Both the position numbers and the translations under genes were made by a program. Positions 347-1,789 of a DNA stretch of 64,000 bases are shown in pieces. Origin of the DNA: Amycolatopsis sp. 195334CR (lineage in GTDB: Bacteria > Actinomycetota > Actinomycetes > Mycobacteriales > Pseudonocardiaceae); NCBI RefSeq assembly GCF_017309385.1, contig NZ_JAFJMJ010000002.1, forward strand, positions 1,736,001 through 1,800,000, in the 5' to 3' direction. The first letter of the stretch is position 1; the number at the start of each line of letters is the position of its first letter. Under the pieces are notes generated by a model. That model was not told the DNA's origin. It was given only the letters and a program-made list of their open reading frames with translations, and did no database searches.

Positions 347-389
347 TGTGAATGTGGCTTTCACAGCGGAATCGGCAGTGAAAGCCACA
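347..389. repeat. Intergenic palindrome interrupted by the IS110 element (left part)
   Basis: The left arm at 347-364 (TGTGAATGTGGCTTTCAC) is complete. The right arm starts at 378 (GTGAAAGCCACA) and breaks off at 389. The missing TTCACA is found at 1743-1748, just beyond the right end of the IS110 element. Joined, the two pieces give an 18/18 perfect inverted repeat with a 13-nt loop. It probably served as a transcription terminator after the upstream gene. Related hairpins lie at 13195-13247 and 22612-22660. Confidence 0.85.
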
Positions 390-404
390 GTGATGATGGT
401 GTGT

Positions 405-600
405 ATGGACGGGGGCTGCCCCGGGGCTTGGCCCGGAAAGCCACTGATGCCCTGGCCGGGGTTGTCTTGCGAATGATCTGCCGGTTCCGGGGTGGTCTCC
501 GTTCGTGCACGTCACCAGGCCAGGGGATGTGACTTGATAGGAGCCTGTGCCACCAGGACACCCATCACTGTGCTGTCCACCCCTGCTGGCCCGGTACGTG
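405..600 (+). ncRNA. Candidate bridge RNA of the IS110 element
   Basis: This non-coding left end holds two loops' worth of guide segments in the order target loop then donor loop. Target left guide: GAAAGCCAC at 436-444, identical to flank 380-388. Target right guide: TGCGAATG at 468-475, whose reverse complement matches 1741-1748 at 7 of 8 bases. Donor left guide: ATAGGAGC at 537-544, identical to the element's right end at 1731-1738. Donor right guide: CATCACTG at 563-570, the exact reverse complement of the left end at 388-395. Possible stems are CCCCGG 419-424 with CCGGGG 487-492, GTCAC 511-515 with GTGAC 529-533, and GGACA 556-560 with TGTCC 574-578. The RNA ends are guesses; the guide matches are seen directly. 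Confidence 0.75.
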
Positions 601-642
601 CCCTCCCTGACCACTGAACACCACGGGACGGCAGAGACCAGG

Positions 643-1725
643 ATGACTGATCAGCACACCGGCGTCGACACTGCCCAGCACACCGCGGTGATCGCCGGGG
701 TCGATACCCATAAAGACACCCACACCGCCGCCGCGCTCGATCCTGTCGGCCGGGTACTGGGCACGCACACCTTCCCGGCCACCACCGCCGGCTACACCGC
801 GCTGCGCACCTGGCTGGCCGGGTTCGGCACGGTGTCCGCGGCCGGTGTCGAGGGCACCGGTTCCTACGGCGCGGGCCTGGCCCGCTACCTGGCCGGCGAG
901 GGTGTCACGGTGGTGGAGGTCAACCAGCCCGACCGGCATGCCCGCCGCCGCAAGGGAAAGACCGACACCCAGGACGCGATCAACACCGCCCGCGCCGTCC
1001 TGGCCGGCCACGCCGAGGCCACCCCCAAAGCCGGCACCGGGCCCGCCGCCGCGATCACCGCCCTGCGCACCGCGCTGACCAGCGCGGTCAAATCCCGCAC
1101 CGCCGCGCTCAACCAGCTCCACGCCCTGATCGTCACCGCCCCCGCCCCGCTACGCGAATCCTTGTCCGGCCTGACCGGCACAACCCTGATCAGGGCCTGC
1201 GCCCGGCTGCGCCCCGGCACCGACCTCACCAGCCCCGTCAACGCCACGAAAACCGCGCTCCGCCGCCTCGCCCGGCGCATCACCGACCTCACCACCGAGA
1301 TCACCGACGCCAAAACCGACCTGAACACCCTGACCCGCCAGGTCCTGCCCGCCACCACCGCCGTGTTCGGCGTCGGCCCCGACACCGCCGCCCAGCTCCT
1401 GGCCACCGCCGGAGACAACCCCGACCGCATCACCACCGAAGCCCAGTTCGCCCACCTCTGCGGCACCGCCCCGATCGACGCCAGCAGCGGCCGCAACAAC
1501 CGCCACCGCCTCAACCGCGGCGGCGACCGCCACGCCAACGCCGCCCTCCACCGAATAGTGATCGTCCGCCTGCGCCACTGCCCCCGCACCCGCGCCTACC
1601 TCGAACGACGCACCCGCGAAGGCCTCCCCAAACGACACATCATCCGCTGCCTCAAACGCTACGTCGCACGCGAAATCCACCGAACCATCACCACAGACAT
1701 GGCCAACCTCACAACAACCCCTTGA
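643..1725 (+). CDS. IS110-family recombinase (DEDD transposase)
   Basis: A 360-residue recombinase that would excise and insert the element as guided by its bridge RNA. The N-terminal RuvC-like domain has the acidic set at D21 (GVDTHKD), E70 (VEGTGSYG), D108 and D111 (KTDTQDA). The middle is a helical linker. The C-terminal Tnp_20 domain carries the serine-containing PIDASSGRNNRHRLNRGG segment near residues 278-293, typical of IS110 enzymes. ATG at 643 is preferred over an upstream in-frame ATG at 547, because the upstream 32 residues would run through the guide-RNA region and do not resemble the family N-terminus. The stop lies 16 bp before the element's right end. Confidence 0.93.
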   Translation: MTDQHTGVDTAQHTAVIAGVDTHKDTHTAAALDPVGRVLGTHTFPATTAGYTALRTWLAGFGTVSAAGVEGTGSYGAGLARYLAGEGVTVVEVNQPDRHARRRKGKTDTQDAINTARAVLAGHAEATPKAGTGPAAAITALRTALTSAVKSRTAALNQLHALIVTAPAPLRESLSGLTGTTLIRACARLRPGTDLTSPVNATKTALRRLARRITDLTTEITDAKTDLNTLTRQVLPATTAVFGVGPDTAAQLLATAGDNPDRITTEAQFAHLCGTAPIDASSGRNNRHRLNRGGDRHANAALHRIVIVRLRHCPRTRAYLERRTREGLPKRHIIRCLKRYVAREIHRTITTDMANLTTTP

Positions 1726-1789
1726 CCTCAATAGGAGCATCATTCACAGCGTGCGCCGGGGGCGGTGGGGGCTGTGGCATGCTGGGCCG

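Follow-up and report, generated by a model that had tools for sequence, protein, structure and literature searches.

Since bridge RNAs and the natural re-aiming of insertion sequences (PMC11208160, PMC11187229) and the insertion of IS110 elements into repetitive extragenic palindromic (REP) sequences (PMC1525189, PMC8450116) have already been published, the element presented here is a well-supported further example of a known system. The closest described element is IS621. As described in PMC11208160 and PMC11208158, IS621 and its close relatives have a CT core in both DNAs, with an almost invariant T. Each right-hand guide of IS621 is followed by two bases that, as described in PMC11208158, pair with the other DNA once the strands have been exchanged, and a promoter is rebuilt at the joined ends, according to PMC11208160.

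The window is a 64,000 nt stretch of DNA from Amycolatopsis sp. 195334CR. It very probably contains an IS110-group insertion sequence whose two-loop bridge RNA guides the recombinase from repeat to repeat. In the proposed mechanism, the long left end would encode the bridge RNA, of whose two internal loops the first would read the target and the second the element's own joined ends. The target is an arm of a palindromic repeat that is abundant in the genome (GTGAAAGCCAC^ATTCAC). A DEDD/serine recombinase guided by this RNA would exchange strands at a shared C, and the element would move from repeat to repeat with no target bases duplicated. The features are the following.

348..388, no strand assigned: target palindromic repeat, with the intact arm at 348-364 and the left part of the interrupted arm at 378-388
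388..1741, forward strand: IS110-family insertion sequence, seven copies with 99-100% identity, borders determined by flank rejoining
C388 and C1741, part of element 388..1741: junction core base common to both junctions
392..397, forward strand: GATGAT, -10-like box, 17 bases from 1727 in the joined ends, weak consensus
401..595, forward strand: bridge RNA region, by covariance model R1
423..488, forward strand: target-binding loop, outer stem approximately 423-432 with 480-488, inner hairpin 446-450 with 461-466
436..444, forward strand: left target guide, GAAAGCCAC, identical to left flank 380-388 (9/9), supported by co-variation
468..475, forward strand: right target guide, TGCGAATG, compared with the reverse complement of 1741-1748 (7/8, mismatch at 470), supported by co-variation
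476..477, forward strand: handshake guide of the target loop, pairs with donor 1739-1740, fits 31/32 guide sets, 30 invariant
528..579, forward strand: donor-binding loop, outer stem approximately 528-533 with 575-579, inner hairpin 547-549 with 559-561
537..544, forward strand: left donor guide, ATAGGAGC, identical to right element end 1731-1738 (8/8), relatives have their own versions at both places
563..570, forward strand: right donor guide, CATCACTG, identical to the reverse complement of left element end 388-395 (8/8)
571..572, forward strand: handshake guide of the donor loop, pairs with target 386-387, mean 1.88/2 over 32 guide sets compared with 1.21 when permuted
643..1725, forward strand: IS110 recombinase, PF01548 and PF02371, frame open from GTG 547
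1722..1727, forward strand: TTGACC, -35-like box, part of a putative promoter that spans the joined ends
1742..1747, no strand assigned: right part of the interrupted target arm, by flank rejoining

The genome of the host strain (G000, 9.9 Mb) has seven full copies of the element with 99-100% identity. All seven are found in the same, guide-matching arm of the palindromic repeat; the left flank ends in GAAAGCCA-C and the right flank starts with ATTC in every copy. Rejoined flanks form an arm of the palindrome, 17 bases long, whose reverse complement is identical to the intact sister arm in 7/7 copies. In a sister genome, G020, the rejoined arm is exact in five of six copies and matches at 16/17 positions in the sixth, i.e., 12/13 copies are exact over both genomes. 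Because flank rejoining restores the sister arm, insertion occurs without target duplication and the borders C388 and C1741 are established independently of the guides. An empty orthologous site was sought, and genomes G054, G027 and G003 were found to have neither hairpin nor element, so the borders were checked on the sister arm. At these three loci (L194, L195 and L196) the orthologous neighbour genes of the window locus adjoin directly with no hairpin or element between them, and thus the repeat itself also came or went at this locus. The frame downstream of the element (positions 1751-2344 of the window) resembles, by a motif at its start, a MobA-type nucleotidyltransferase.

The frame at 547-1725 shows both IS110 domains, PF01548 with 85.9 bits (cut-off 29) and PF02371 with 65.4 bits (cut-off 21.3). 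ATG 643 is taken to be a likelier start than GTG 547, because a protein started at the latter would have the donor loop within its coding sequence. The nearest solved structures by sequence are those of IS621 (E 3e-11, a low similarity between the two recombinases) and ISCro4 (E 4e-11). The catalytic D, E, D, D and serine residues of IS621 align in the recombinase when the alignment to 8wt6 is inspected by eye; the 8wt6 chain numbering is two higher than in PMC11208158, from which the residue names are taken. A close homologue (P0003) is publicly annotated as 'IS110 family RNA-guided transposase'. There are 255 noncoding bases before ATG 643 compared with 16 bases after the stop codon, and the RNA is located in the left end. 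Matches at E <= 1e-80 are present in 39/390 genomes and 13/46 genera of the family, which agrees with the assignment of the element to an actinobacterial subgroup in the original prediction. A contig scan of genomes with the recombinase protein confirmed no relative; the relatives were taken from separate genome searches.

The original prediction had placed four guide segments at 436-444, 468-475, 537-544 and 563-570, and all four are found there with matches of 9/9, 7/8, 8/8 and 8/8. Chance matches were assessed with 20,000 dinucleotide-preserving shuffles of positions 405-600, with the best match anywhere scored for each guide. The observed match was reached in 6 shuffles for the left target guide, 2564 for the right target guide, 4 for the left donor guide and 107 for the right donor guide. 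Two or more guides together were reached in 11/20,000 shuffles and all four in none. With 2564 shuffles reaching its match, the right target guide taken by itself could be a chance match in this one sequence; the four-guide set is beyond chance. The mismatch at base 470 is a C-A pair in six of the seven copies in the host genome. Copy L007 (G000:C1:3918371-3919725) is in a variant repeat (GGAAAGCCAC^ATTCG), and its fit to the guides exceeds that of the other six, which are in the common repeat.

A consensus of 36 relatives reveals two stem-loops with internal loops, and the guides are inside these internal loops. The alignment, which also underlies covariance model R1, includes 36 of the 40 distinct left ends; the four that are excluded are three from the host genome and L083, which has a long insertion. 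In the consensus fold 94.4% of cells are paired, compared with 80.2% in shuffles, and 16/24 pairs show changes on both sides (shuffled mean 10.2). None of 500 shuffles is as high on any of five fold measures, and sliding the partners by 1-3 columns reduces pairing to 31-45%. The two-pair helix between the donor guides is nearly invariant and gives little information. Model R1, built without the copies of the host genome, finds positions 401-595 of the window at 113.1 bits (E 9.3e-23), and the next match in the window has 8.4 bits (E 1.9). At 28.9 to 35.9 bits (E 2e-6 to 7e-5) it also matches five loci of distant lineages. When 405-642 is folded as a single sequence, the target-loop stem is visible but the fold is no better than that of its shuffles (z -0.82), and thus the support for the fold is comparative. 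A search of Rfam at a loose threshold gave no bridge RNA family and three weak matches of microRNA/snoRNA type below gathering scores. The two-loop fold and the bispecific layout of the IS621 type that had been proposed from the one sequence are both borne out by this comparison, and the handshake guides, which the original prediction did not name, are present as well.

Co-variation of the guides with their flanks was analyzed with loci from the genus and family, which gave 117 unique records. Of these, 69 were kept and 48 dropped: 29 had no matching donor-guide pair, 18 were below 40% identity, and the last is L117. Among the 29 records, 20 have at least 40% identity, and several of them are cut by contig ends or miss one end. 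The left tip was located by an automatic rule, a 6-base match between the left tip and the right donor guide, and was set by hand in ten cases, where the rule had misplaced it (L001, L005, L006 and L074) or had failed (L081, L102, L115 and L155-L157). The rule in part predetermines the C at the left junction and its next base; it does not predetermine the C of the right junction. The 69 records represent 32 distinct guide sets, including that of the window's element.

With the core base excluded, the mean match over the 32 sets is 7.19/8 positions between the left target guide and its own flank (2.90 when permuted) and 4.22/6 for the right target guide (1.78 when permuted). The donor-loop handshake pair matches target positions 6-7 at 1.88/2, compared with 1.21. 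These three values are reached in 0/10,000 permutations, a figure that is not an exact probability as the relatives share descent. The handshake type of positions 476-477 is changed in L083 in both guide and donor, and L163 is the sole exception among the 32 sets. The left donor guide has five versions (ATAGGAGC, ATAGGGGC, GTAGGAGC, ATAGCAGC and ATAGAAGC), each of which is repeated at its own right end. These matches between donor guides and ends were first found as shared words with no preset motif; in the later counts the match served to select the records. Where copies have a guide in common, they also have a common flank (7/7 in G000, 6/6 in G020). The expected co-variation is seen as other flanks with other guides over 32 sets; it does not extend to one base in the distant lineage of G003, which is unpaired.

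The core at the junction differs from that of IS621. A CT core in target and donor was not found here; both have CA in the element of the window. All 69 records have C as position 8 of the right junction. At position 9, the target has A in 12 guide sets, C in 8, T in 7 and G in 5, and the donor has A or T. Donor and target are unlike at this position in 24/32 guide sets. The CA core of the original prediction is correct for the target and donor of the window element, where A follows C, but it does not hold as a general core in view of these 24 sets. Target position 9 and the right target guide agree in 29/32 sets (permuted mean 8.6, maximum 22, 20,000 permutations), and the three sets that fail there are L071, L102 and L163. 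The right ends of L071 and L163 are followed by the donor-like sequences CAGTGA and CTGTGAG, respectively; these two loci are perhaps tandem junctions, in which two element ends abut.

In the kept elements the left junction has the base that is read by the donor guide, which is partly fixed by the left-tip rule, and the right junction has the target's base. All six copies in G020 show A, as in the donor, at the left junction and T, as in the target, at the right one. A crossover immediately behind the C explains this most simply; a two-base exchange followed by one-sided repair could also account for the junction bases. We see an even chance that this subgroup recombines at a single shared C and not at a CT dinucleotide, with position 9 belonging to no common core. 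If true, bridge recombinases would gain one more programmable base and would not need matching dinucleotide cores; should an assay bear this out, a constraint on present bridge recombinases would fall away. In the passages of PMC11208160, PMC11208158 and PMC11187229 covered here a single-base core is not mentioned, and it may be the part of this work that is new.

Joining of the ends places TTGACC at 17 bases from the GATGAT box. A TTGAC motif is present 19-20 bases before the core in 38 of the 40 distinct elements, and weak GANNAT-like boxes are found just inside the left end. By analogy with IS621, the RNA would be expressed from the joined ends, the recombinase would bind it, and a circular intermediate and catalysis would follow; the same analogy suggests that changed guides would re-aim the element, a programmable activity.

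A shorter left-end RNA of the seekRNA type could also guide the choice of target, with the match between the second loop and the element ends not used as a donor guide. An RNA of 70-100 nt, commoner than the longer form that contains it, is described for IS1111 and IS110 elements (PMC11187229). In the present elements, however, the fold of the donor loop is as conserved and as co-varying as that of the target loop, left donor guides and right element ends vary in concert, and the handshake pair of the donor loop follows the target. These properties make a target-only RNA quite improbable. The guides, the fold, the co-variation of guides and flanks, the handshake pairs, the repeated use of a single target and the borders are documented here at the level of sequence.

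The target repeat is abundant in the host genome. AAAGCCACATTC is found 171 times in forward and 150 times in reverse orientation, i.e., there are 321 guide-matching sites, and read backwards it has 0 and 0 matches. Of 80 genomes of the genus, 38 have a match to GAAAGCCACWTTC: 35 to 774 sites in 23 of them, 5 to 8 in three, and a single site, which may be due to chance, in twelve. The repeat with AAAGCCAC arms is found genus-wide, and each species has nearly all sites in either the A-form or the T-form. GAAAGCCACATTC represents 317/321 sites in G000 and 765/774 in G003, which are A-form genomes, and elsewhere 0/205 in G020, 0/318 in G024, 0/148 in G060 and 1/102 in G015. A Y1 transposase of the REP-associated kind (PF01797) was not detected in the host genome; the same search was positive in 5/14 control genomes. 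A strand polarity of the repeat along the contig was also considered and was dropped, as the idea came from the first places listed only.

A comparison of the host genome and G020 reveals a change of one base in guide and repeat. G020 has six copies of two sister elements, with 83.7% and 85.5% DNA identity to the window element. Their right target guide is TGCGAAAG, compared with TGCGAATG in the window, and their right flank is CTTTC in 6/6 copies compared with CATTC in 7/7 copies of G000. The difference in the guide goes with the version of the host repeat, T in G020 and A in G000. Sister elements and their host repeats thus differ at the same single base of the right target guide, which represents a clean natural experiment. 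In G015, a T-form genome, the guide is GAAAG in the one copy where it is readable (guide only). A second IS110 lineage, with a recombinase approximately 33% identical, is present in the same repeat at L088 and L165-L171 (G003), L091 (G024) and L092 (G060). Its guide is GAAAG in the T-form genomes G024 and G060. In G003 the guide is GAACG, with its C unpaired to the target A, and all eight copies are in the A-form. The guide follows the form of the repeat in five of six genomes, with G003 as the exception. An A/T guide switch throughout the distant lineage was considered; it holds for G024 and G060 and fails in A-form G003, where the guide has C.

That the recombinase protein or the hairpin shape picks the target, with the guide-like matches left over from earlier insertions, is hardly credible: although guide and flank cannot be separated in the host genome, as the flank is common to 7/7 copies, and although the same repeat is occupied by two IS110 lineages whose recombinases are only about 33% identical, relatives that have other guides are found at correspondingly different, matching sites, the position of the guides within the fold is conserved, and L187 of the distant lineage has a different left guide together with a different flank.

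The guided, two-loop reading places the element close to IS621 as described in PMC11208160 and PMC11208158. In both, the bridge RNA is in the left end upstream of the gene with the target loop before the donor loop, the four guides are in the same order and accompanied by handshake dinucleotides, an intergenic palindromic repeat is the insertion site, and a TTGAC-type box is at the right end. Unlike in IS621, only the C is shared here and the next base varies. The match of the left donor guide stops two bases short of the core (at 1738), whereas it reaches the core C in IS621. This actinobacterial subgroup has guides and sites that can be read directly, and its shared core seems to be one base.

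The seekRNA elements ISEc21 (IS110) and ISEc11 (IS1111), as described in PMC11187229, are similar in that a noncoding region matches both target strands, insertion is without duplication, and related elements are re-aimed naturally. They differ in that the seekRNA is shorter and its described guide roles concern the target. The noncoding region of ISEc11 is downstream, whereas that of the window element is upstream; the 16 bases between stop codon and right end are not the long downstream noncoding region of the IS1111 group. IS110-type elements in the REP sequences of other bacteria, as described in PMC1525189 and PMC8450116, likewise insert into repetitive extragenic palindromes, and one of these, ISPpu9, also has seven copies in its genome. 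These elements have other hosts and other repeats, and the comparison covers their insertion sites and, for ISPpu9, the copy number.
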